Below are positions 3,191 through 50,601 of a DNA stretch of 64,000 nt, piece by piece. Numbering within the stretch: the first letter of the stretch is position 1; each line of letters begins with the position of its first letter. The stretch comes from Eledone cirrhosa (Eukaryota > Mollusca > Cephalopoda > Octopoda > Eledonidae). Both the position numbers and the translations under genes were made by a program. The stretch spans positions 64,888,547-64,952,546 of the forward strand of contig OZ024744.1 of NCBI GenBank assembly GCA_964016885.1, written 5' to 3'. The notes beneath the pieces are model-generated. The model searched no databases. It saw only the letters and a program-made list of their open reading frames with translations, and was not told the DNA's origin.

Positions 3191-6100
3191 ACATACATAC
3201 ATCCATACATGATGGCTTCCTCCTCGTTATTGAGTATGGCCATCGCACAAGAAAAAAAAATATATATATATACATATATATTAATAACAATAATAATAAT
3301 AATAACAACAATAATAATAACGACAACAACAACAATAATAATATATATATATATATATACACACACGTAAACATATCTATACACACATGATAGCAACTAA
3401 CAGCGCTGCGATCGAATGTGGCTTTTTAGCCCAGCCAATGATCTAAAATGTCTTGCACAGAGTCGGCAACCAAAACATTCACTGGGAATAGTCGGCTGTG
3501 GTTGGAGTTTGTGTACTTTTGCATGTCGCTTGAGCCCTCCTGCTGATTTACATTCTCTACCACATGTTTGGCAAGCATGATGAGTAGCATCTCCAACAGC
3601 AGCCTGGTAGTCAACCACTGGTCTTACTTTATGACTGCGAAGATGACTTTCGAGTCCAGCTTTGCTTAGGCAGAGTCTCGCACAGACGCTGCATGTCAGC
3701 ACCTTAGGAGGACCCTCGCCGTCTGGAAGTGCAACAGCAATGCCCTTCCTCACATCCCGCTTTACTTTCTCATATGCGTTTCGAGATGCCTCAAAGGCAA
3801 CTTTTCCCTCATATACAGTCTTTCTCCATTTATTACGATCAGCAGCAATATTTTCCCATGTATCAGCAGAGATGTTAGCGTCTTTCAAAGAGGCTTTCAA
3901 GGAATCCTTATACCTCTTTTTTGGTTTATGTGGCAGTCGTTTTTCTTTAACTAACTCTCCATAAAAGAGTTGTTTTGGTATTCTAGAATCCTTCATCCTG
4001 GCAAGGTGACCACTCCAACGGAGTCGTTGCTTAAGCGCAAGAGCTTCTATACTATCACACATAGATCTTTCCAAAATCTCGAACTGATGTGGTCCCTCCA
4101 GTGAACGCCATGGATCTGTCTGAGACACATCTGATGGAAACGCTCCAATTGCTTAAGTTGGTGTCGATATATGACCCAGGTCTCGCAGGCATAAAGAAGA
4201 GAAGAGAGCACACATGCCTTGTACACCTTTACCTTTATCTTTCTAGCTTTCCAAAAGCATCACTTGCTTTCCTAATCCTAAGTGAGATTTCACTATCAAG
4301 GTTGCTGTATCGATTGACAGTGCTTCCCAGGTAGACAAGTCGTTTACCATACACATAGATATTTGGTTCACTGTACTGCTTACCAGGGGAAGGTTGGTAC
4401 ATGACGACGGTTTTCTTGAGACTGACAGTCAATCCTAAGGCAGTGCAAGCATAAGAAAATACATTCAAAATGTGCTGCATATCACTCTCTGTGTGCGCTA
4501 CAAGATCGCAATCATCTGCATACAAGAGGTCTATTATGATTGATGTAAATACTTTTGTTTTTGCAGCAAAGTGCCTGATGTTAAATATGCTGCCTGAGGT
4601 TCGATATCGGATGTAAACATCATGCTCACAATTCCTGAATGCAATACAGAAAACCATTGCAAAGTATATGGCAAACAGGGTCGGTGCTGGAATATCCCCG
4701 TTTCACTCCATTTTTTACTGAGATAGGCTCCGACATATTACCTCTGACATTAACCCAAGCCTTCATGTCGTCATGGAAAGACCTAACTAAAGCAAGGAAC
4801 TTATCAGGGCAACCAAGTTTCTGGAGAACCTTCCATAATGCATTTCTATTAACAGTATCGAAAGCTTTTGTCAGATCGACAAAAACCTGATACAGAGCCA
4901 AACCTTGTTCAATGCACTTCTCCTGGAGCTGTCTAGCTGAGAAGATCATATCAGTAGTGCCGCGTCCAGCACGAAAACCAGATTGACTTTCAGGAAGAAC
5001 ACAATCTGCAATGTGTGTCAGCAGACGGTCCAGAAGCACTCTACATAAAACTTTCCCTACGACAGAAAGCAATGATATACCTCTGTAGTTCCCACAATCA
5101 TTCCTGTTACCCTTTCGCTTGTACAAGACCACCATTACTGCATCTCTCCAGTCATCAGGTATGGATTCATTAGCCCATATCCTGCCAAACAAAGAGTGAA
5201 GATGTTGCAGGAGTCTCTCACCACCATATTGTAGGAGCTCTGCATGTTTGCCATCCATACCTGGAGACCTTCCACTGTTCAGCTTTGAGATAGCCACTGC
5301 AACCTCCACAAGCGTCGGAGGTTCTGCAAAAGCTACTTTCACAGGACTTTCTGGAATGAGATTGAGGAAATCTTCATTGACGACAGACGGCTGATTCAAA
5401 AGTTCATGAAAGTGCTCTCGCCACCTTCATAGAATTCCTTGTGAGTCACGAAGAAGTTCTTTGCCATCCTTGCTGCGAAGCGGTGTCACCAGAGAAGAAG
5501 ACGGTCCATAAACTTCATGCAAGAGACTGTACAACAGCTTTGTGTTATTAGAATCTGACGCAGTTTGTATCTCATCAGCCTTCTCACTCCACCACTGATC
5601 CTTCATCTGAGAAAGACTCCGCCTCACACGTGATTTCACATCCTTGAGTTCCTTATGCAACATATTCTTCTCCTATGGTTTTGTCGTCAAGTAGCGTGAC
5701 AGAGCATGCCTCTTATCAGCCACCAAGTCTTCTATAAGTTCATCATTCTCATTAAACCAGCCTTGATGTTTTCTCTGCACCAATCCCAGAACATGCCTGC
5801 CTACATCATAAACTGACTTTTTAAGGGTCGGCCAATCCTCACCAAGATCTGCAGCCTGCATCTCTTCTCGCAATGTCCTCTTCACATCTTTATCCCTAAA
5901 ACGAGCAGCATTCAATCTTCTAGGCAGGGCAACACCAGGAGCCCGGATTTTACGTTTAGTGATTAGTTTCACTTTTGCGCATAGTAGACGGTGGTCCGTC
6001 CAGCACTCAGCTCCACAAAGAGCACGAACACACTGCACATCCCGTCTGTCACGCATCCTGACTAGGAAGTAGTCCAAAAGATGCCATTCCTTAGATGCAG

Positions 6101-6191
6101 GATGCATCCATGTAGTTTTAAATTTGTTCTTTTGTTGGAACATGGTGTTGGTAGCACACAGATCCAGCTCCTCACACATCTGCAGCAGGAG
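3191..6191 (-). mobile_element. RTE-ZnF LINE copy 1, 5'-truncated
   Basis: Minus-strand LINE of about 3 kb. Its 3' end has a (CATA)n tail (3191-3210), a 32-nt hairpin (3212-3243), a 3' untranslated region swollen by A-rich, TA and TAA/CAA repeats (3244-3396), then the stop codon at 3397-3399. The body carries reverse transcriptase and fingers. The 5' end breaks inside the endonuclease at about 6191, where another element's (CATA)n tail begins. By eye it is well over 90% identical to the copy at 6.8-11 kb, so both are recent relative to the relics on the left. Confidence 0.85.
3397..6191 (-). pseudogene. RTE-like ORF: partial endonuclease, reverse transcriptase, three C2H2 fingers (broken)
   Basis: Would encode an apurinic-type endonuclease (only its end is present: WHLLDYFLVRMRDRR and TDHRLL), then reverse transcriptase with motif A DLTKAFDTV, motif C LLYADDCDLV and a YLGSTV block. 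The C-terminus has CSVCARLCLSKAGLESHLRSH, CQTCGRECKSAGGLKRHAKVH and CRLCARHFRSLAGLKSHIRS followed by QRC. Breaks: TAG at about 5673 (CAG in copy 2), TGA at about 5427 (probably from CGA), a 2-nt loss near 4692 ahead of the motif B position, and a frame change near 4235 after GKLER. It keeps 30 nt (WREHFHELL) absent from copy 2. The third finger has lost its last histidine (SQRC against SQHC in copy 2). Confidence 0.85.
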
Positions 6192-6665
6192 CATACATAC
6201 ACACATACATACATACGGACATACATACATATATACATACATACATGTATGGTGGCTGCCAACTCGTTTTTGAATACGGCCACTACTTTATATCCATGTA
6301 GGAGAACCCCTACCAATGCGCTGAACAAGTGTGACTTTTTAGTCCAGCCAGCGACTTGAAAACTCAGGTACAAACACTACACTTGTGACAATTATTGACA
6401 CATAGTGCTGGGCCCATGGTACCATGTGACGACAAGTGCAGCGAGATCTCCAGATATAAAGCAATGCCTGTGCCGTGAAGCTTTTATAGTGAGCAAAGGC
6501 ACTGCACAAAGCCAGTCCCACTCTCTTAACCAAGATGATATTTACCAAAAAGAAGAACAAGTCAACATCATTGGATACCATCAGGGTTGCAGGTGTTATA
6601 TCAGAGTTTTCCTTCTCCTAGAATTCTGCCTTGACAAAGGCTAAGGGGTCATCTCTCCCGGAGAT
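6192..6665 (-). mobile_element. Internally deleted RTE-ZnF derivative N1
   Basis: Tail (CATA)n at 6192-6248, hairpin 6252-6283, then the last zinc finger of an RTE-ZnF ORF (CSVCARVF-like followed by GLKSHTRSAHR and a stop, on the minus strand at about 6310-6390), joined directly to leader sequence up to 6665. The junction, read on the plus strand as 'cacttgtgacaattattgac', is the same in N2, N3 and N4. One deleted master therefore gave rise to all four. The inner hairpin stem is eroded here (tgaa instead of cgag) but the outer stem remains. Confidence 0.75.
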
Positions 6666-6895
6666 ACATACATACACACATACATACATACAATCATACA
6701 TACATACATACACACATACATACAATCATACATACATACATACATACAATCATACATACATACATGATGATGGCTGCCCCCTCGTTATCGAGTATGGCCA
6801 TTGCACGAGAAAAAAAAAAATAAATAAAAATAAAAATAAAAATAAAAATAAAAATAAAAATAAAAATAAAATAAAATAAAATAAAATAATAATTG

Positions 6896-6932
<37 letters not shown>

Positions 6933-7024
6933 GAAATATATATATATATATAGATGCATACATATATACATACACACATACATACACATACACACACACA
7001 TATACACACACATACATTAATAAC

Positions 7025-7057
<33 letters not shown>

Positions 7058-10000
7058 GACAACAACAATAATAATATACATATTCATATATATATACACA
7101 CACACGCACGCACATAAGCATATCTACACACACACACACACACACGATAGCAATTAACAGTGCTGCGATCGAATGTGGCTTTTTAGCCCAGCCAATGATC
7201 TAAAACGTCTTGCACGGAGTCGGCAACCAAAACATTCACTGGGAATAGTCGGCTGTGGTTGGAGTTCGTGTACTTTTGCATGTCGCTTGAGCCCTCCTGC
7301 TGATTTACATTCTCTACCACATGTTTGGCAAGCATGATGAGTAGCATCTCCAACAGCAGCCTGGTAGTCAACCACTGGTCTTACTTCATGACTGCGAAGA
7401 TGACTTCCGAGTCCAGCTTTGCTTAGGCAGAGTCTCGCACAGACGCGGCATGTCAGCACCATAGGAGAACCCTCGCCGTCTGGAAGTGCAACAGCAATGC
7501 CCTTCCTCACATCCCGCTTTACTTTCTCGTGTGCGATTCGAGATGCCTCAAAGGCAACTTTTCCCTCATATACAGTCTTTCTCCATTTATTACGATCAGC
7601 AGCAATATTTTCCCATGTATCAGCAGAGATGTTAGCGTCTTTCAGAGAGGCTTTCAAGGAATCCTTATACCTCTTTTTGGTTTATGTGGCGGTCGTTTTC
7701 CTTTAACCAACTCTCCATAGAAGAGTTGTTTTGGTGACCACTCCAACGGAGTCGTTGCTTAAGCACAAGAGCTTCTATACTGTCACACATAGAGCTTTCC
7801 AACATCTCGACATCACTGATGTGGTCCCTCCAGTGAACGCCATGGATCCGTCTGAGACACATCTGGAAACGCTCCAATTGCTTAAGGTGGTGTCGATATG
7901 TGACCCAGGTCTCGCAGGCATAAAGAAGACAAGAGAGTACACATGCCCTGTACACCTTTACCTTTGTCCTCCTGCATATGTCTCGCCGACCCCAGAGTCA
8001 CCTTTCTAGCTTTCCGAAAGCATCACTTGCTTTCCTAATCCTAAGTGAGATTTCACTGTCAAGGTTGCCGTATCGATTGACAGTGCTTCCCAGGTAGACA
8101 AACTGATCAACCACTCCAAGTCGTTTGCCATACACATAGATGTTTGGTTCAGTGTACTGCTTACTAGGGGCAGGTTGGTACATGACAACGGTTTTCTTGA
8201 GAGTGACAGTCAAACTCAGGGCAGTGCAAGTGTCAGAAAATGCATTCAAAATGTGCTGCATATCACTCTCTGTGTGCGCTACAAGATCGCAATCATCTGC
8301 ATACAAGAGGTCTCTTATGATTGATGTAAATACTTTTGTCTTCGCAGCAAAGCGCCTGATGTTAAATATGCTGCCTGAGGTTCGATATCGGATGTAAACA
8401 CCATGCTCGCAATTCCTGAATGCAATACAGAAAACCATTGCAAAGTATATGGCAAACAGGGTCGGTGCTGGAATATCCCCCTGTTTCACTCCATTTTTTA
8501 CTGAGATAGGCTCCGACATGTTACCTCCGACATTAACCCAAGCCTTCATGTCGTCATGGAAAGACCTAACTAAAGCAAGGAACTTATCAGGGCAACCAAG
8601 TTTCTGGAGAACCTTCCATAATGCATCTCTGTTGACAGTATCGAAAGCCTTTGTCAGATCGACAAAAACCTGATACAGAGCCAAGCCTTGTTCAATGGAC
8701 TTCTCCTGGAGCTGTCTAGCTGAGAAGATCATATCAGTAGTGCCGCGTCCAGCATGAAAACCAGATTGACTTTCAGGAAGAACACAATCTGCAATGTGTG
8801 TCAGCAGACGGTCCAGAAGCACCCTACATAAAACTTTCCCTACGACAGAAAGCAATGATATACCTCTGTAGTTCCCACAATCATTCCTGTTACCCTTTCC
8901 CTTGTACAAGACCACCATTACTGCATCTCTCCAGTCTTCAGGTACGGATTCATTAGCCCATATCCTTCCAAACAAAGAGTGCAGATGTTGCAGGAGTCTC
9001 TCAACACCATATTGTAGGAGCTCAGCATGTATGCCATCCATACCTGGAGATCTTCCACTGTTCAGCTTTGAAATAGCCACTGCAACCTCCACAAGCATCG
9101 GAGGTTCTGCGAGAGTTACTTTCACAGGACTCTCTGGAATGAGATTGAGGAAATCTTCACTGACGACAGACGGCTGATTCAAAAGAATTCCCTGTGAGTC
9201 ACGAAGAAGTTCTTTGCCATCCTTGCTGCGAAGCGGTGTCACCAGAGAAGAAGACGGTCCATAAACCTCACGCAAGAGACTGTACAACAGCTTTGTGTTA
9301 TTGGAATCAGACGCAGTTTGTATCTCACCAGCCTTCTCACTCCACCACTGATCCTTCATCTGAGAAAGACTCCGCCTCACACGTGATTTTACATCCTTGA
9401 GCTCCTCATGCAACATATTCCTCTCCTGTGGTTTTGCTGTCAAGTAGCGTGACAGAGCACGCCTCTTATCAGCCAACAAGTCTTCTATATGTACATCATT
9501 CTCATTAAACCAGTCCCGATGTTTTCTCTGCACCAATCCCAGAACACGCCTGCCTACATCATAAACTGACTTTTTAAGGGTCGGCCAATCCTCACCAAGA
9601 TCTGCAGCCTGCATCTCTCCTTCCAATGTCCTCTTCACATTTTTATCCTTAAGACGAGCAGCATTCAATCTTTTGGGCAGGGTAACACCAGGAGCCCGGA
9701 TTTTACGTTTGGTGATTAGTTTCACTTTTGCGCATACCAGGCGGTGGTCCGTCCAGCACTCAGTTCCTGTCGGTCACGCATCCTGTCTGTCACGCATCCT
9801 GACTAGGACGTAGTCCAAAAGATGCCATTCCTTAGATGCAGGATGCATCCATGTGGTCTTGAATTTGTTCTTTTGTTGGAACATGGTGTTGGTAACACAC
9901 AGATCCAGCTCCTCACACATCTGCAGCAGGAGAATACCATTGCTGTTACACTTTCCCACCCCATGCCTTCCGATTACATTCCATGTGTTAAAATCCCTAC

Positions 10001-15626: not shown

Positions 15627-15810
15627 GTAGTTGGGTGGTGGATTGGCAGTATTGGTAGAGGATCGGATGCCATGCTTTGACATATAGAGTTACGGCCCTT
15701 GCTATTCTGAGTTCAACTTTACCTTTCATCCTTACGGGGTCGATAAAATAAAGTACCAGTAATGCACTGGGTAATTGCTGGCCTTGTGCCAAAAGTAGAA
15801 ACAATTATTA
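15627..15810 (+). mobile_element. SINE-A, full length with internal deletion at B box
   Basis: Head 'gattggcagtattggtagag', body and tail 'gtagaaacaattatta'. The B box keeps 'gagttcaa' but has lost the following atcctgcc block, so its internal promoter is probably dead. Head to head with the preceding SINE. Confidence 0.83.
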
Positions 15811-28530: not shown

Positions 28531-28800
28531 GTCTCTCTCTAGACACTAACTCCACCAGTTGCAGACTGCGCATCAATATGAGATATTTTTCTCCACAAAG
28601 TTCGATCACCAACAGGATCCCTACTCACTACTGTCGAGGTGGGGCTGGCTACCCATAGGAGTGAGTCCAGTAAGTTGGTATTGGTATTGGTATAAGTTTT
28701 CTCCATCTTGATATGTTAGTTAGTAGTGGACCAGTGCTGTCAATAATGACAGCAATAATGTTGAATGTATTTTATTTTTGAGGCAAGGACTGGTACACTA

Positions 28801-28834
<34 letters not shown>

Positions 28835-28886
28835 AAACAAGAAGTGTAAGTCAACAGGTTAAAATTAACTTCCTTTATTCATATTC
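28531..28886. other. Unassigned DNA with TC/TA tract
   Basis: (TC)n(TA)n at 28800-28832. The remainder probably belongs to the ribozyme-bearing repeat that follows; its left edge is not visible. Confidence 0.4.
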
Positions 28887-28945
28887 GCTGCAATATATAT
28901 TTCGGTGATAACCATAATTCAATAGTTATGACCTCATCAGGCAGC
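28887..28945 (-). ncRNA. Hammerhead ribozyme (type I), minus strand
   Basis: Read 5' to 3' on the minus strand: stem I strand GCTGC (28945-28941); core CTGATGA (28940-28934); stem II GGTCATAACTAT with its partner across 28933-28904 (12 pairs with one mismatch); core GAAA (28903-28900); a six-base loop TATATA; T at 28893 (position 16.1); T at 28892 (position 17, a permitted base); and the closing stem I strand GCAGC (28891-28887). All invariant core bases are present (C3, U4, G5, A6, G8, A9, G12, A13, A14, A15.1-U16.1). Predicted cut is after 28892. Hammerheads of this minimal type I form are known from Penelope-like elements and small circular retrozymes; no such ORF lies nearby. Confidence 0.75.
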
Positions 28946-29051
28946 TAGAACTTGAACAGAAAAAAACAGGGAAATATAATGGTAAAATATATATTTTATT
29001 TGAATTTGGCAAAGCCGGCCATTTATTGCTCGTATACAGGAAACTGACTGA

Positions 29052-31538: not shown

Positions 31539-31862
31539 GAAACCTTGAAGAAAATGTTTTGCAGATTTCTTCATAGTTTTAGTTAGTTTACCAGGAGGAA
31601 TCTAACTAAGGAATCAGTATCCTTCAGCAATTGGAAATGGTAACCTTCAGCAACCACCTTATAATCCTAATCAGGAACCACTCGTTAAGAAGGAGGATAA
31701 TAGTCATGAAAATGAAAGATGGAAAATGGCGTTGGGGGAAGGAGGGGGGGGGGTGAACAAAAGAAATGGAAAAAAAAATTACTGGCAATATACATCTGAT
31801 GATTGGAATGATAACTGCCAAGTGGTAGAAATTCCACTGGAAAATATTATTCATCATTACCA
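31281..31862. other. Unassigned DNA with A-runs
   Basis: A-runs at 31495-31545 and a G-run at 31740. The last 65 bp ('ttggaatgataactgccaag' onward, 31799-31862) recur at 33347-33402, so this is a short dispersed repeat of unknown origin. Confidence 0.5.
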
Positions 31863-34793: not shown

Positions 34794-34902
34794 AATCCCG
34801 CCGAGGTTGACTTTGCCTTTCATCCTTACGGGGTCGATAAAATAAAGTACCAGTAATGCACTGGGTAATTGCTGGCCTTGTGCCTAAAGTAGAAACAATT
34901 AT
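34794..34902 (+). mobile_element. SINE-A, 5'-truncated at the B box
   Basis: Starts 'aatcccgccgaggttgac' and runs to 'gtagaaacaatta', flanked by TA repeats on both sides. Confidence 0.85.
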
Positions 34903-35244
34903 ATATATATAATGCCCAATTTTTTCTCGATTCTTCTCTCCATTCGAACCCATTCATTCAATCACTTCTATGTCCTAATTTCACACTATATCATATTTTC
35001 ACCATTATATATCATATCTTTTCTCTAAAAATCATATTTTCCCTATCACCGCATTTTCTCTATCGTAATTTCTTAAACAAAACAAATCTTGTATTTTCGT
35101 TTATTGTTAAATCATGCCCAAAATACGGCGATCTTATCTTAAACCTTACATTCTCGCTAACAACCCATCATCCCTCCCTCCCGCCCCCACGCACCACCAT
35201 TATTACGTGGACCAATCATAAGTCAGAGGCCCATACTATCGCTT
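34903..35244. other. Unassigned AT/CT-rich DNA
   Basis: No element recognised. It may include untranslated leader of the following LINE, whose true 5' end is not defined. Confidence 0.45.
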
Positions 35245-38200
35245 AACTGGTTGCTTTTCGATATGATGGATGGACTACGGAATTCTGGAGAGTTGAAGAG
35301 AGAAAAATGTGGACGCTCAGCGACAATGCCAAAGATAAAGCCAAATTCACCTCGTGGACGAGAATGCAAGCACTCCTCCTTGTTTCGGCCCAGGATGGCT
35401 AACATAACCCCATCCCCCCCCCGCGCCCCACCGCTCCCACCCTCCAAACGCAATCCAAAACTTCAGAGTTGGTACCATGAATGTAGGCACCTTAAAGGGT
35501 CGCTCTAACGAGGTTGTAGAAATGCTTGAACGTAAGGAGGTCGATGTTTGTTGTATTCAAGAGACCAGGTGGAGGGGAGGGTCGGCTAGATTCATCGTGG
35601 GTAAAGAGCGATGCTATAAGCTTTTCTGGGTGGGAAATGACAATGGGTTGGGTGGGGTAGGAATCATGGTAGCAGAAAAGTGGGCAGATAAGATAATAGA
35701 CGTAAATAGAGTGAACGACAGAATAATTAAAATAAGACTTGTCCTCAATAAAACTACGGTGACAGTAATATCTGCGTACGCACCCCAATCCGGACAGCCC
35801 CGCGCTATAAAAGACAGATTCTACGAGACACTGATGCTCGCTACCTCCCAAATAACCGACAGTGACTATATAGTTATTGCAGGCGACCTAAATGGTCACG
35901 TTGGACAACATTGTGACGGCTATGACGGAATCCATGGAGGCTATGGGTTCGGTACTAGAAATGAGGAAGGCTCCAGAATCCTGGAATTCTGCGACGCAAA
36001 TAACTTAACTATCTGTAACACTAACTTCAAAAAACGAGACAATCACTTGATCACCTATAGATCGGGGGAACACACAAGCCAGGTAGATTATATCCTTACC
36101 AGAAGACGTGACAGAGTGTCTGTTGTTAACACTAAATCCCACCCCCATGAAGAATTCACCTCCCAACATAGACTGATAATTAGCGACCTCATAGTCAGGA
36201 CGAGACGTACTAGACAGCGAAAGAGGACTATCCTCAGGAGAAAAATATGGAAGCTAAAGGACCCCATAGCCAGAAATAAATTTCAAAGCAAATTACTTTA
36301 CGCTTTCGACAGTAAGGAAGAGCAATTAGAGTCGTATAATATAGAGGAACAGTGGGAATTCCTGAGAGCAAACCTGCTGACGGTGGCAGACGAAGTCTGT
36401 GGCTGGAGCAGGCCTGTAGGTAGGAGGAGAGTAACATGGTGGTGGAACAGTAAGGTGGAGGAGTCAATTAAGGCCAAAAAGCAGGCTTGGAAAGTATGGC
36501 GGGATGGGGGAAGTAGAGAAGACTATCAAGTGGCCAGGAGGGAAGCTAGGAGACAAGTGTACTTCGCAAGAAGGGAAGCAGAGGAAAGAAAGTTCAAGCA
36601 TGTTCTACAACGTGAGGACCAAAAACGTGAGGTGTTCAGGATTGCCAGGCAATGTGTCAAGGAAAACCGTGATATTGTCGGGGAGAAGTGTGTACTTAAC
36701 GATGATGGCATACTTGCCATCACCGACGCTGATAAGAAGGTAGCTTGGAAGTGTCACTACGAAAGGCTTCTAAATGAGGAGAACAAATGGGAGAAAGACA
36801 GTCTCCCCCAGATCGATCCAATAGAGGGACCAGCAGTGTTAGTTGAAGGTAGTATAATAAGTAAGGCAATCAAAGATATGAAGACGGGTAAGGCGGCTGG
36901 GCCTTCGGAAATAGTTGCTGAGATGCTGAAGGCATCTGGTTCGGTGGGACACACCATGGTCACCCGGATAGTTAACCAAGTCGTACAGAATGGGGTTGTT
37001 CCGAAGGAATGGCGTAGCAGCATCATCGTTAACTGCTATAAGGGAAAAGGAGATGCCCTAGATAGGAGTAACTATAGAGGCATTAAATTAATCGACCAGG
37101 TCATGAAGGTCACGGAAAAAGTAATAGCGCAACTAATCAGAGAGAGAATTGATCTAGATGAAATGCAGTTCGGGTTTGTGTCAGGCAAAAGTACCACAGA
37201 CGCTCTTTTCATTGTACGACAACTACAGGAGAAGTACCTAGCTAAAAGTAAACCCCTATACTTAGCTTTTGTCGACTTGGAGAAAGCCTTCGACAGAGTC
37301 CCCCGTTCCATTATCTGGTGGTCTCTTAGAAAACTAGGTGTTGACGAATGGCTTGTGAGAGCTATACAAGCCATGTATAAAGAAACAGTCAGTAAGGTTA
37401 GAATTAACAACGAATATAGTGAAGAGTTTAGCGTAAAAGTTGGTGTCCATCAGGGCTCTGTACTTAGCCCCCTACTATTTATTATTGCCCTTCAGGCTAT
37501 AACAGAGGAGTTCAAGACCAGCTGCCCATGAGAACTCCTATACGCAGATGATCTAACGCTCATAGCTGAATCAATGACCGAACTAGAGAAGAAATTCCAA
37601 ACGTGGAAGCACGGCCTAGAATCAAAAGGCCTTAAAATTAACCTGGCTAAGACTAAAGTTCTAGTTTGTAGGAAAGAAAATAAGGCGGCGGTCCCATCGG
37701 GGAAATGGCCATGCTCAGTGTGTAGGAAAGGCGTAGGTAGAAACTCCATTTTATGTCCCAAATGCAAAGTATGGGTGCATAAAAGATGTAGTGGGATCAC
37801 AGGTAAGCTAACTAAGAACATAGATTTTACATGTGGCCGGTGCTCTGGTGCAATAAGTAGCAGCAAGTGCCCACAAAATACTAGCTCCTTCAACTGCGCA
37901 GAGGGTTCTATAGAAATAGTGGACAGCTTCCGTTATCTGGGTGACAAAATCAGCAGTGGGGGAGGGTGCTCTGAAAGTACAGTAGCTAGAGTCAGAACTG
38001 GATGGAAAAAGTTCAGAGAGCTTATACCACTATTAGCCGCTAGAGGGTTCTCCCTAAAAATGAAAGGCAGGTTATACGATGCCTGCATACGAACTGCAAT
38101 GCTGCATGGCAGTGAGACCTGGGCATTGTGTGCAGAGGATATACGCAGACTAGAGAGGAACGAAGCTTGCATGCTCCGCTGGATGTGCAATAGTAATATA

Positions 38201-39002
38201 CGTGAACGGCAAAGCATAAACGAACTAAGGAAAAAATTAGAAATAAGAGGGATCAGATGTTGTTTACTCGAGAGAAGGCTACGTTGGTACGGTCACGTGA
38301 TGCGCATGAAAGACGACAGCTGTATAACAAAGTGCAGGGCAATAAAGATAGACGGTAGCCACGGAGTAGGCAGACCCAGAAAAACATGGGACGAGCTGAT
38401 AAATTCCGACCTCACACGCTTACACCTCTCCAAGACAATGTCACTGGACCGAGACCTTTGGCGGTACTCAGTAATAGAGAAGACCCGCCTTACCTAAATA
38501 CAAAGTAAAAACCTACTACAGTCAGTAGGCACCTCTATCAAAACACACCCCCGTCCCACCACCTCCACCCCACCCACACCGCCCCTTTCAATGTAAAGTT
38601 ATGTTGGTCCCACAACATCCAGGCCGAAACAAATGAGATCGTGTAGGTGTCACGACAAAAAACACACAGTCCACGCTGTAAATGTGGCCGTGTAGGCAAC
38701 ACGGTAAAAACCTCCCAGCCCCACACTGTAAATGTGGTTGGTGTTAGGAAGGGCATCCAGCTGTAGAAAACCCGCCAGACAGTCCACGCTGTAATGTGGC
38801 CGTGTAGGCAACACGGTAAAAACCTCCCAGCCCCACACTGTAAATGTGGTTGGTGTTAGGAAGGGCATCCAACTGTAGAAAACCCGCCAGACAGTCCTAT
38901 GCGAGCAAGACAACCACTCTTGCCTCAAGTGGGAAAACCCCCGTCCAAACCCATGCAAGCGTGGAACACGGACGCTAAACCTGATGATGATGATGATGAT
39001 GA
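35245..39002 (+). mobile_element. Family 3 LINE copy 3, near full length
   Basis: Shares its start 'tggttgcttttcgatatgat' with the inverted copy at 54073, carries the whole ORF, a 3' UTR (38498-38984) with two tandem copies of an about 113-bp unit, and an ATG-type tail (38985-39002). Only one nonsense codon lies in the main ORF. It is the best copy of this family in the window. Confidence 0.88.
35477..38497 (+). pseudogene. RTE-like ORF with PHD finger between RT motifs D and E (one stop)
   Basis: 1006 codons from ATG 35477. The frame probably begins further upstream (ATG 35263), as in the inverted copy, but a C-run indel shifts it here. Endonuclease: MNVGTL (Asn2), IQETRW (Glu29), SAYAPQSG, AGDLNGHVG, SQVDYIL, SQHRLI. 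Reverse transcriptase: NCYKGKGDALDRSNYRGIK, VDLEKAFDRV (motif A), HQGSVLSPLL (B), LLYADDLTLI (C, about 687-696), LAKTKVLVC (D) and FRYLGDKI (E, about 818). Between D and E lies C746-x2-C, C760-x2-C-x4-H-x2-C, C786-x2-C, a C4HC3 PHD spacing. The C-terminus has LRWYGHVMRMKD and RKTWDEL. The only break is TGA at 37529-37531, where the copy at 49.7 kb has TGG (Trp). Confidence 0.9.
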
Positions 39003-39053
39003 TATTATATTATATATATATATATAATATAATATCATCATCATCATCATCTG
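38985..39053. repeat. (GAT)n(AT)n(ATC)n palindrome
   Basis: The ATG tail of the LINE, a TATA tract and an (ATC)n run form a near-perfect palindrome with arms of about 30 bp, centred near 39019. It is the remains of a tail-to-tail junction. Confidence 0.85.
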
Positions 39054-39211
39054 ACGCTATGCTTTGCAGCAAAGAGTTACGCCCCTTTATGGTTTGAGTT
39101 CAAATCCCGCCGAGGTTAACTTTGCCTTTCATCCTTACGGGGTCGATAAAATAAAGTACCAGTAATGCACTGGATAATTGCTGGCCTTGTGCCAAAAGTA
39201 GAAACAATTAT
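39051..39211 (+). mobile_element. SINE-A, short form, A box truncated
   Basis: Starts 'ctgacgctatgctttgcag', with B box 'gagttcaaatcccgcc', body and tail 'gtagaaacaatta'. Confidence 0.85.
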
Positions 39212-39288
39212 ATATATATATATATATAGAACTTGAACCGATAAGGTTCGGTTTACCGATTATATCACTATTTATAAAATAAATTTTG

Positions 39289-39352
39289 TATTTTATCTGA
39301 TGAGAGCGTACCAAAGTTTTTTTGGTACCCTTGAAATATATATAATAAATAA
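39289..39352 (+). ncRNA. Hammerhead ribozyme (type I), upstream unit
   Basis: Stem I TATTTTAT (39289-39296); core CTGATGA (39297-39303); stem II GAGCGTACC with GGTACCCTT (39304-39312/39324-39332, eight pairs including one G-U, and one mismatch); core GAAA (39333-39336); loop TATATA; T39343 as 16.1 and A39344 as position 17; and 3' stem I strand ATAAATAA (five contiguous pairs). All invariant core bases are present. Stem I is weakened by two mismatches, so activity is less certain than in the next unit. Confidence 0.68.
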
Positions 39353-39607
39353 ATATGGTTTTATAAATATAGTTTCCATTTATTAATATTATTAATATCA
39401 TTGATATTATACTCCAGGAAACTTGTAGAGTGCTTCAAATCTGTTATAATAAATAAATTTGTTGAATTACCAGCAAATTAAATATCTCTTTGCTTATATA
39501 TATATATATTATATTATATGTAGGAAGTGAGTATTATTGTAGCACAATAAAGCAATGCAAATATCAGATAAGTAGCACTCTACAGTTTGTAGGACTGGAG
39601 TATAAAT

Positions 39608-39779
39608 AATATAAGATCAAAAGATGGTTAAAAGAATTCCAAGTATTTTTAACCTTCATATCATGTATCCCTATTTTATCTGATGAAAACGCAGATATCA
39701 TCTCATGATGATATTTGTTTTTGAAATGCGCATAATAAAATACTTGGAACTCTTTTAACCATCTTTTGATCTTATATTA
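39608..39779. repeat. Long inverted repeat around the downstream hammerhead
   Basis: About 39 bases at 39610-39650 (ataagatcaaaagatggtta and onward) reappear as complement at 39737-39779 with one mismatch. It encloses the ribozyme and could extend or compete with its stem I. Confidence 0.85.
39672..39742 (+). ncRNA. Hammerhead ribozyme (type I), downstream unit
   Basis: Stem I TATTTTAT (39672-39679) pairs perfectly with ATAAAATA (39735-39742). Core CTGATGA 39680-39686. Stem II is 16 pairs (39687-39702 with 39707-39722, one mismatch, two G-U) closed by tcat. Core GAAA 39723-39726. Loop TGCGCA (39727-39732), T39733 as 16.1 and A39734 as position 17, so the predicted cut is after 39734. The first stem II pair is A-U instead of the usual G-C. 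It shares the 15-base string TATTTTATCTGATGA with the upstream unit 383 bases away, as expected for paired ribozymes of a retrozyme or Penelope-like repeat. Confidence 0.82.
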
Positions 39780-39995
39780 TATTATATTATATATATATAT
39801 ATTATATTATATATATATATATAATATTATATATATATATATTATATATAAAAATGACTTCTATAGGACTAAACTGTTTCATTTATAGGAAATCAGCATA
39901 TGTATAATAAAGATGCCTATACTCTACCAATATATTGAGTACCTTTTTTAAACTGTGATTACCCCCAAACACGACTTGGAAATCTACATATTATA
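39780..39995. other. TA tract and unassigned DNA
   Basis: (TA)n/(TATAT) to 39850, then unique-looking sequence. Confidence 0.5.
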
Positions 39996-40535
39996 TCATC
40001 ATCATCATTTTATGTCCGCTTTTCCCTGCTCACAAGGGTGGGACGGGTCCTATTCAGCACAGCATCTCTCCATTCGTGACAGTCCTTTGTTATCTCCTCC
40101 ATGAGCTTCAGCGATCTGAGGTCAGCTCTCACCAGCTCTGCCCATGTTTTTTGTGGTCTTCCTCCCACATGTCCATACCAACGCAGTCTTCTCTCTCGCA
40201 CACTACAGCCTATCCCTCTTATACACAGTTTCTCTCTCAACTCGTCTATGCTTCGTCATTCATGCACATCGACATTGCACATCCAATGGAGCATGCTTGT
40301 TTCATTTCTCTCCAGCCGTCGCATATCCTCCACAGTTGCTTCCCATGTCTCACTACCATGCAGCATTGCACATCTCACACAACCATCATATAACTGGCCT
40401 TTCATTCGTAGGAGGAACCCTTCTTTGTGAACAGAGGAAGCAGCTCCCTAAACTTCTTCCAACCCGTCCTTATTCTAGATACTATGGCCTCAGAGTACCC
40501 TCCTCCCTTACTAATCTGATCAAGTAAGTATGTTT
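39996..40535 (-). pseudogene. Family-3-related LINE, C-terminal part with ATG tail
   Basis: Minus strand: ISKGGGYSEAIVSRIRTGWK, then KKFRELLPLF, a frame change, then RERRLRWYGHVGGRPQKTWA and LVRADLRSL, ending near NRTRP. After the coding part come 'acccttgtgagcagggaaa' and 'gcggacataaaatgatgatg', which is the SINE-B tail. Different subfamily from the 35.2-kb copy. Confidence 0.78.
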
Positions 40536-40654: not shown

Positions 40655-40720
40655 GACATACATGGGAGTCGAACCCACATCTCTGGTTATCCAGACCACT
40701 GTGCTACCATTACACATATT
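40655..40720 (-). pseudogene. tRNA-like pseudogene or SINE head
   Basis: Minus strand reads 'gtaatggtagcac' (D-arm-like), 'tggtctggataacca' (stem TGGT/ACCA, seven-base loop), then 'gtgggttcgactcccat' (T-arm with a perfect B-box GGTTCGACTCC). The acceptor stem is poorly matched and no SINE body follows that I recognise. Probably a tRNA-derived pseudogene. Confidence 0.45.
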
Positions 40721-47524: not shown

Positions 47525-47646
47525 AATTCTGAGTTCAAATACCTCTGAAGTTAGCTTTGCCTTTCATCCTTACAGGGTTGATAAAATAAAGCACCAGTAA
47601 TGCACTGGGGTAATTGCTGGCCTTGTACCAAAAGTAGAAACAATTA
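47525..47646 (+). mobile_element. SINE-A, 5'-truncated at B box
   Basis: 'ctgagttcaaatacctctg', 'cctttcatccttacaggg', tail 'gtagaaacaattattta'. Confidence 0.82.
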
Positions 47647-47827
47647 TTTATATTGATCAGAGAAAACATTAAACTTATATACAAATTGTTAAGAGAATTT
47701 ATTGCCAGGGTACATCATCATTAAGATTTCATGCTAGAAATGAAAAGATTGTATATATACATATAATAATATATATATACTATATAGGTTATATTTATAT
47801 CACATATATAATATATATATGTGTGTG

Positions 47828-48208: not shown

Positions 48209-50601
48209 AACTTGATCACCTACAGATCAGGGGAACATACCAGCCAGGTAGATTATATCCTTACCAGAAGACGTGACAGAGTGACTGTTGTAAACACTAA
48301 ATCCCTCCCCCATGAAGAATGCATCTCCCAACATAGACTGATAATTAGCGACCTAATAGTCAGGACGAGACGTACTAGACAACAGAAGAGGACTATCCTC
48401 AGGAGAAAAATATGGAAGCTAAAGGACCCCACAGCCAAAAATAAATTTCAAAGCATATTACTTGATGCTTTCGACAGTAAGGAAGAGCAATTAGAGTCGT
48501 ACAAGGTAGAGGAACAGTGGGAATTCCTGAAAGCAAACCTGCTGACGGCGGCAGACGAAGTCTGTGGCTGGAGCAGGCCTGTAGGCAGGAGGAGAGTAAC
48601 ATGGTGGTGGAACAGTAAGGTGGAGGGGTCAATTAAGGCCAAAAAGCAGGCTTGGAAAGTATGGCGGGATGGGGGAAGCAGAGAAGACTATCAAGTGGCC
48701 AGGAGGGAAGCTAGGAGACAAGTGTACTTCGCAAGAAGGGAAGCAGAGGAAAGAAAGTTCAAGCATGTTCTACAACGCGAGGACCAAAAACGTGAGGTGT
48801 TCAGGATTGCTAGGCAATGTGTCAAGGAAAACAGTGATATTGTCAGGGAGAAGTGTGTACTTAATGATGATGGCTTGCCATCACCGACGCTGATAAGAAG
48901 GTAGCTTGGAGGTGTCACTATGAAAGGCTACTAAATGAGGAGAATAAATGGGAGAAAGACAGTCTCCCCCACATCGACCCAATAGAGGGACCAGCAGTGT
49001 TAGTCGAGGGTAGTATCATAAGTAAGGCAATCAAAGATATGAAGACAGGTAAGGCGGCTGGTCCTTCGGAAATAGTTGCTGAGATGCTGAAGGCATCTGG
49101 TACGGTGGGACACACCATGGTCACCCGGATAGTCAACCAAGTCATACAGAATGGGGTTGTTCCGAAGGACTGGCGTAGCAGCATCATCGTTAACTGTTAT
49201 AAGGGTAAAGGAGATGCCCTAGATAGGAGTAACTATAGAGGCATTAAATTAATCGACCAGGTCATGAAGGTCACGGAAAAAGTAATAGCGCAACTAATCA
49301 GAGAGCGAATTGATCTAGATGAAATGCAGTTGGGGTTTGTGTCAGGAAAAAGTACCACAGACGCTCTTTTCATTGTACGACAACTACAGGAGAAGTACCT
49401 AGCTAAAAGTAAACCCCTATACTTAGCTTTTGTTGACTTGGAGAAAGCCTTTGACAGAGTCCCCCGCTCCATTATCTGGTGGGCTCTTAGAAAACTAGGT
49501 GTTGATGAATGGCTTGTGAGAGCTATACAAGCCATGTATAAAGAAACAGTCAGCAAGGTTAGAATTAACAACGAATATAGTGAAGAGTTTAGTGTAAAAG
49601 TTGGTGTTCATCAGGGCTCTGTTCTTAGCCCCCTACTATTTATTATTGCCCTCCAGGCTATAACAGTGGAGTTCAAGACCGGCTGCCCATGGGAACTCCT
49701 ATACGCAGATGATCTAACGCTCATAGCTGAATCAATGGCTGAGCTAGAGAAGAAATTCCAAACATGGAAGCACGGCCTAGAATCAAAAGGCCTTAAAATT
49801 AACCTGGCTAAGACTAAAGTTCTAGTTTGTAAGAAAGAAAATAAGGCGGTGGTCCCCTCCGGGAAGTGGCCATGCTCAGTGTGTAGGAAAGGCGTAGGTA
49901 GAAACTCCATTTTGTGTCCCAAATGCAAAGTTTGGGTGCATAAAAGATGTAGTGGGATCACAGGTAAGCTAACTAAGAACATAGATTTTACATGTGGCCG
50001 GTGTTCTGGGGCAATAAGTAGCAGCAAGTGCCCACAAAAAATACTAGCTCTTTCAACTGCGCAGAGGGTTCTATAGAAATAGTGGACAGCTAGAGTCAGA
50101 ACTGGGTGGAAAAAGTTCAGAGAGCTTATACCTCTACTAGCCGCTAAAGTGTTCTCCCTAAAAATGAAAGGCAGGCTGTATGATGCCTGCATACGAACAG
50201 CAATGTTGCATGGCAGTGAGACCTGGGCATTGTGTGCAGAGGATATACGCAGACTAGAGAGAAACGAAGCTTGCATGCTCCGCTGGATGTGTAATAGTAA
50301 TATACGTGAACGGCAAAGCATAAACGAACTAAGGAAAAAATTAGAAATAAGAGGGATCAGATGTTGTTTACTCGAGAGAAGGCTACGTTGGTATGGTCAC
50401 GTGATGCGCATGAAGGACGATAGCTGTATAACAAAGTGCAGGGCAATAAAGATAGACAGTAGCCACGGAATAGGCAGACCCAGAAAAACCTGGGACGAGC
50501 TGATAAATTCCGACCTCACACACTTACACCTCTCCAAGACAATGTCACTGGACCGAGACCTTTGGCGGTACTCAGTAATAGAGAAGACCCGCCTTACCTA
50601 A
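48209..50601 (+). pseudogene. RTE-like ORF with PHD finger (frameshifted)
   Basis: Same protein as at 35477 from residue about 190 onward. Breaks: a 4-nt deletion near 48873 (ggcatactt to ggctt), a 2-nt A insertion near 50036 after KCPQ, and a 59-nt deletion at about 50090 between AGC repeats that removes motif E (FRYLGDKI). The palm is intact: VDLEKAFDRV, HQGSVLSPLL, WELLYADDLTLI. The PHD finger is intact (CSVCRKG, CPKCKVWVHKRC, CGRC). It ends VIEKTRLT at 50601. The frame from 47972 upstream of 48209 is fortuitous. Confidence 0.87.

Follow-up and report, generated by a model that had tools for sequence, protein, structure and literature searches.

Three hammerhead sequences in the window

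The window analyzed here, a 64-kb stretch of DNA, contains three sequences with the anatomy of a minimal type I hammerhead ribozyme (Table 1). Two of these, U1 and U2, are in direct orientation, with their starts 383 bases apart and 390 nt from cut to cut; U3 lies ~10 kb from this pair. The first-pass annotation had described two hammerheads, and all of the bases that it named were found in place. Both units proved real, but U3, on the minus strand, had been overlooked.

Table 1. Coordinates of the hammerhead units and neighboring features in the window.
Feature	Position	Strand	Basis
U1, minimal type I hammerhead	39289-39349	+	Bases read directly and strict descriptor
U2, minimal type I hammerhead	39672-39742	+	Bases read directly and strict descriptor
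U3, minimal type I hammerhead	28887-28945	-	Strict descriptor, both strands
Probable 189-bp TIR transposon	39412-39600		Inverted repeats score 38; 2000 shuffles reached at most 31
Left arm of 44-nt inverted repeat around U2	39606-39649	+	98% complementary to 39737-39780
Right arm of 44-nt inverted repeat around U2	39737-39780	+	98% complementary to 39606-39649

In U1, TATTTTAT (39289-39296) is followed by CTGATGA (39297-39303), a stem II with 12 of 13 positions paired (39304-39332), GAAA (39333-39336), the loop TATATA (39337-39342), U16.1 (39343), A17 (39344) and the 3' strand of a 5-bp stem I (39345-39349). U2 begins with the same TATTTTAT (39672-39679) and continues with CTGATGA (39680-39686), stem II (39687-39722), GAAA (39723-39726), the loop TGCGCA (39727-39732), U16.1 (39733), A17 (39734) and the 3' strand of stem I (39735-39742). 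For this downstream unit, a perfect 8-bp stem I and a 16-position stem II with one mismatch had been claimed, and the 8 bp of stem I and 15 of the 16 stem II positions indeed pair. Across 39289-39308 and 39672-39691, 18 of 20 bases are common to U1 and U2. On the minus strand, the CTGATGA of U3 starts at 28940, stem I is GCTGC/GCAGC, the loop is TATATA, and G10.1-C11.1 forms the base of stem II. The usual pair at 10.1-11.1 of hammerheads is G-C; U2 departs from it with A-U and U1 with G-U, which counts against these two units. U3 is the most regular unit, with G-C pairing both in its stem I and where its stem II begins. Cleavage is predicted after A39344 in U1, after A39734 in U2 and after U28892 on the minus strand in U3.

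All three units have the type I features, namely a CUGANGA and GAAA core, stems I and II, a UH site and an open stem I, and in each of them a one-pair stem III carries a self-complementary six-base loop. This anatomy, shared by 3/3 units, supports the initial assignment to type I hammerheads in sequence and fold, with a minimal stem III and a likeness to Penelope-associated and retrozyme hammerheads.

The three units exceed chance expectation

The strict descriptor consisted of CTGANGA, a stem II with its first two pairs and five of its first six, GAAA, a loop of 4-6 bases or a stem III of at least 3 pairs, UH, and a stem I of at least 5 pairs. Applied to both strands of the 64-kb window, it matched exactly three times, at U1, U2 and U3; when the dinucleotides were shuffled within 2-kb blocks, none of 300 shuffled windows gave a match. 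Relaxed scans, which required only the first stem II pair plus five of six, still returned three matches: the shuffled mean was 0.06 when stem I was reduced to at least 3 pairs and 0.23 when one core mismatch was allowed (100 shuffles each). Order-3 sequences were scanned with a close variant of the descriptor (loop 3-6, stem I of at least 5 pairs). Training on the whole window gave 12 matches in 249 Mb, or 0.0062 expected per window, and training on the AT-rich stretches around the units gave 13 in 236 Mb, or 0.0071 per window. None of the 25 simulated matches (485 Mb in total) had a palindromic six-base loop.

As a natural control, we used 87 stretches of IMG/VR viral contigs (79 + 8) containing CTGATGA, GAAA and a TATATA or TGCGCA loop at the right distances. 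Stem II formed in 3/87 of these skeletons, a five-pair stem I in 0/87 and both in 0/87, whereas both stems formed in 3/3 window skeletons with these two loops, a small sample from a window chosen for holding two of the units. Allowing any six-base loop added one window skeleton, at 31796, which the descriptor rejected. A model built on the three units (R1) revealed no fourth copy in the window, the next match having an E-value of 0.86. At the level of sequence, these data confirm the three units as genuine hammerhead ribozyme sequences and not chance matches.

The units have a common stem II plan in 3/3 cases: three pairs, a C-C or C-U mismatch and then 8-12 pairs, with sequences that are unlike. 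The mismatched C faces C in U1, U in U2 and C in U3, and the pairs beyond it number 9 in U1 (8 in the folded model), 12 in U2 and 8 in U3. Beyond the six stem II positions scored by the descriptor, 23/24 still pair (U1 7/7, U2 10/10, U3 6/7). In an alignment of the three units, 36/36 cells pair and 9 of the 12 modelled pairs change on both sides, counts that are partly or largely the product of construction because the descriptor picked the units for pairing; sliding the partner strand lowers pairing to 36-61%. Although the descriptor asked for no such property, the loops are palindromic in all three units (TATATA, TGCGCA and TATATA). Palindromes make up 1.9% of the 6-mers in the window and 6/181 of those between GAAA and TH, the three units included.

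Covariance searches and predicted folds

A covariance search of the region with Rfam had been proposed as a check, and it gave no hammerhead match for any unit. At the gathering score, the Rfam hammerhead models had no match in the whole 64-kb window, and at E-values up to 10 they had none in 38800-40300, in 28800-29050 or in short stretches around U2 and U3; U1 was covered inside the window and the 1.5-kb stretch 38800-40300. We do not take this result as a refutation, given the strength of the chance and control tests and given that a stem-III-poor hammerhead whose stem II is long and interrupted is probably distant from the usual Rfam model.

The short fold of U1 was weak and formed without stem I (z -1.5; 11/200 shuffles as good), and that of U2 had a z of -2.9 (3/200 as good). 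With 90-nt flanks, the hammerhead fold lay 4.5 kcal/mol above the free optimum in U1, 8.1 kcal/mol above it in U2 and 0.4 kcal/mol above it in U3. Judged by its short fold, U1 is the weakest of the three units. With regard to a loop 1-loop 2 tertiary contact, stem I of U1 and that of U3 may carry 5' bulges in the hammerhead folds with flanks, but flank pairing beyond 5 bp was not above chance in these two units. An extended stem I was also considered. At 50 nt, shuffles were as good in 2/1000 cases for U2, 413/1000 for U1 and 400/1000 for U3; at 30 nt the counts were 62, 929 and 133 of 1000, and no unit beat chance. Random positions in the window matched the extended stem I of U2 at 50 nt in 431/2000 cases. 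The extended stem I was dropped as a common feature, since U1 and U3 are at chance and random positions are often as good.

Predicted pairing between copies

The self-complementary loops suggest how a hammerhead with so short a stem III might act. Upon transcription, each RNA would form its own stems I and II. When two like copies meet, their palindromic loops could pair over 8 bp, as ATGCGCAT for U2 and as ATATATAT for U1 and U3, which would complete the one-pair stem III, and the RNA would then be cut after position 17.

The predicted loop III duplexes had energies of -10.5 kcal/mol for U2-U2, -3.2 kcal/mol for U1-U1 and +1.7 kcal/mol for U1-U2. Cofolding of whole units gained 11.5 kcal/mol for U2-U2, 8.0 kcal/mol for U3-U3, 5.4 kcal/mol for U1-U1 and 5.6 kcal/mol for U1-U2 (-35.4 kcal/mol together vs -29.8 kcal/mol separately). 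Some pairing of U1 with U2 outside loop III is possible in these models, but a proper double hammerhead of the two is unlikely because TATATA and TGCGCA each pair with themselves but pair poorly together.

Sequences around the units

About half of the spacer between U1 and U2 is occupied by a 189-bp inverted-repeat element that begins with CTCCAG, ends with CTGGAG and has TA (or TATA) on both sides. It is probably a TIR transposon, judging from these ends; no second copy was found in the 64-kb window. U2 itself is enclosed by the arms of a 44-nt inverted repeat, the free fold of which reaches -72.4 kcal/mol (z -13.3). Stem I of U2 shares six bases of its 3' strand with the start of the right arm, and therefore two folds compete. 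In the free fold of U2 with 90-nt flanks, the left arm takes the stem I bases, and the hammerhead fold lies 8.1 kcal/mol above this fold, as noted. If the entire hairpin were transcribed, U2 would therefore probably be hindered, unless folding proceeds during synthesis.

Other repeats were also seen. A SINE-like tail at 39150-39220, which looks cephalopod, recurs at 16 further places in the window with 82-100% identity (for example, 34841-34911, 15747-15808 and 47585-47653). A partial tRNA match lies at 40662-40715 on the minus strand (33.9 bits). Just upstream of U1, a long palindrome of TGA/TCA and TA repeats (38986-39051) gives many weak and surely spurious microRNA matches.

Several protein-coding frames in the window belong to LINEs. 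A PHD finger is encoded in two places: at 35477-38497 in the frame that comes after endonuclease and reverse transcriptase, and at 48997-50076 together with the reverse transcriptase in a single frame. On the minus strand, a reverse transcriptase fragment (4626-5399) lies between two C2H2 zinc finger frames (3397-7657). The longest LINE frame has 52 protein relatives, only three of them named: one from Octopus sinensis with 64% identity over 5% of the query, one from Vicia villosa with 23% identity over 40%, and an unplaced reverse transcriptase. The DNA is probably of cephalopod origin.

Origin of the units

Taken together, we consider it likely that U1-U3 are genuine stem-III-poor type I hammerheads from a dispersed animal retroelement family, either the pLTRs of Penelope-like elements (PLEs) or retrozyme-like, non-autonomous kin, and that U1 and U2 bound no working monomer. 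On this reading, U1 and U2 are separate or long-decayed units whose spacer was probably enlarged by the transposon, and U2 is embedded in an inverted repeat that forms a helix at the expense of U2 stem I.

A more specific origin is possible but doubtful, namely that the pair is the remnant of a broken-up Penelope-like element whose pLTRs once held U1 and U2. According to two studies, PLE pLTRs harbor hammerheads of this stem-III-poor kind (PMC7761336, PMC11167929). However, a Pfam scan of 29 ORFs of the window found no GIY-YIG domain and no Penelope-type protein. Among six reverse transcriptase frames, Exo_endo_phos was found in the same frame in three and in the next frame in one, and a PHD finger was present instead in one, as in LINEs; the sixth had no second domain.

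It is less probable still that U1 and U2 bound one non-LTR retrozyme monomer of ~390 nt (39345-39734) that is cut at both sites and circularized, as the first-pass annotation had inferred. The direct orientation is as expected, the cut-to-cut length falls within the 150-450 bp published for type I hammerhead repeats of animals (PMC7229834), and the GC content of the interval is 25%. The 18 common bases of 20, the perfect complementarity of the U1 stem I 5' strand to the U2 3' strand and the U1-U2 cofolding gain point the same way. Against this, if the monomer were a tandem repeat, the sequences before and after both units should resemble each other, and they do not: shuffles were as good in 350/500 cases for the upstream flanks, 296/500 for the downstream flanks and 714/1000 for both combined. 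Stem II and loop III also differ between the units, the loop III heteroduplex is unfavorable, and no other copy of 39221-39900 was found in the window (blastn, E up to 0.01, low-complexity filter). The full 390 nt folded strongly as a circle (z -5.5), but the transposon alone reached z -5.9, and without it the cut-to-cut length fell to 199 nt and the circular fold to z -2.4; the strong fold of the interval therefore probably owes much to the inserted element. A retrozyme is marked by a single monomer repeated in tandem with similar ribozymes, and no such array is seen here; flank alignment, loop duplexes and circular folds do not support the monomer. The ribozyme parts of U1 and U2 themselves look related (0/500 shuffles as good, a score helped by the common catalytic core), so an old, decayed pair is compatible with the data. 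For U2 and U3, one test of the downstream flanks stood out (0/500 shuffles as good; 16/1000 with both flanks combined); as one of several comparisons, and of AT-rich sequence, this may serve only as a lead.

That the units are accidental look-alikes formed by DNA hairpins such as AT-rich palindromes or MITE ends is very improbable: palindromes abound in the region, a 44-nt inverted repeat encloses U2 and Rfam gave no match, but the shuffles, the simulation trained on AT-rich stretches (0.0071 expected) and the 0/87 natural skeletons speak against it, as does the presence, 10 kb away, of a third unit whose stem I is rich in G-C.

Discussion

Our analysis adds three units, not two, to a known kind of hammerhead. 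The sequences suggest that this genome contains hammerheads of a dimer-acting kind that escape the standard library. Because the library misses units of this type, library-based counts, such as the 235 listed for giant squid, may be too low. If the loops differ between copies yet stay self-complementary, they could form a self-recognition code among the copies of an element.

A bolder reading, which we think unlikely, is that the units represent a large, Rfam-invisible family in a probably cephalopod lineage. Its members would act as homodimers. Stem II would have a fixed base, with three pairs and a C facing a pyrimidine, followed by a hairpin that is hypervariable in sequence yet always self-complementary, and loop III would vary from copy to copy while remaining palindromic. 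If so, only like copies could activate each other. Three units per 64 kb, if typical of a whole genome of a few billion bases, would amount to tens of thousands or more, a density biased upward because the window was chosen for holding two of them.

Stem-III-poor type I hammerheads of Penelope-like elements were reportedly described by Cervera and de la Pena in 2014 and by Lunse, Weinberg and Breaker in 2017. According to PMC7761336, most minimal type I hammerheads of animals are dispersed, and some lie in PLE pLTRs; they may cut as dimers, and Penelope-like elements carry them in tandem. In vitro activity has been published for a PLE hammerhead, apparently with help from the protein of the element (PMC11167929). 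U1-U3 resemble the hammerheads of Penelope-like elements in CUGAUGA, GAAA, a weak stem III, a self-complementary loop III and a location in dispersed non-coding animal DNA. Unlike those, they are found without a Penelope reverse transcriptase or GIY-YIG domain in the frames scanned. A further difference may be stem II, which in U1-U3 is long (29-36 nt) and mismatched at its fourth position.

With the metazoan non-LTR retrozymes (PMC7229834), the units share the type I form and an AT-rich setting, and U1 and U2 share the direct orientation at 390 nt. In contrast to those elements, U1 and U2 have no tandem common monomer, and their stems II and loops differ.

Palindromic stem III/loop III sequences occur in several hammerheads, according to a figure legend (PMC3088659, Figure S8 legend), and repeat hammerheads with a palindromic loop III are mentioned in PMC6466107. 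As in the Aedes aegypti repeat-type hammerhead of that legend, loop III of U1-U3 can pair fully between two copies, a likeness that concerns the loop.

Beyond a giant squid count, we found no study of hammerheads in octopus or other cephalopods in the open-access literature. That count lists 235 hammerhead 1 ribozymes obtained with covariance models of known families (PMC6962438). U1-U3 are like this Hammerhead_1 set in being the same ribozyme class in a cephalopod, and unlike it in that Rfam release 15 matches none of them.
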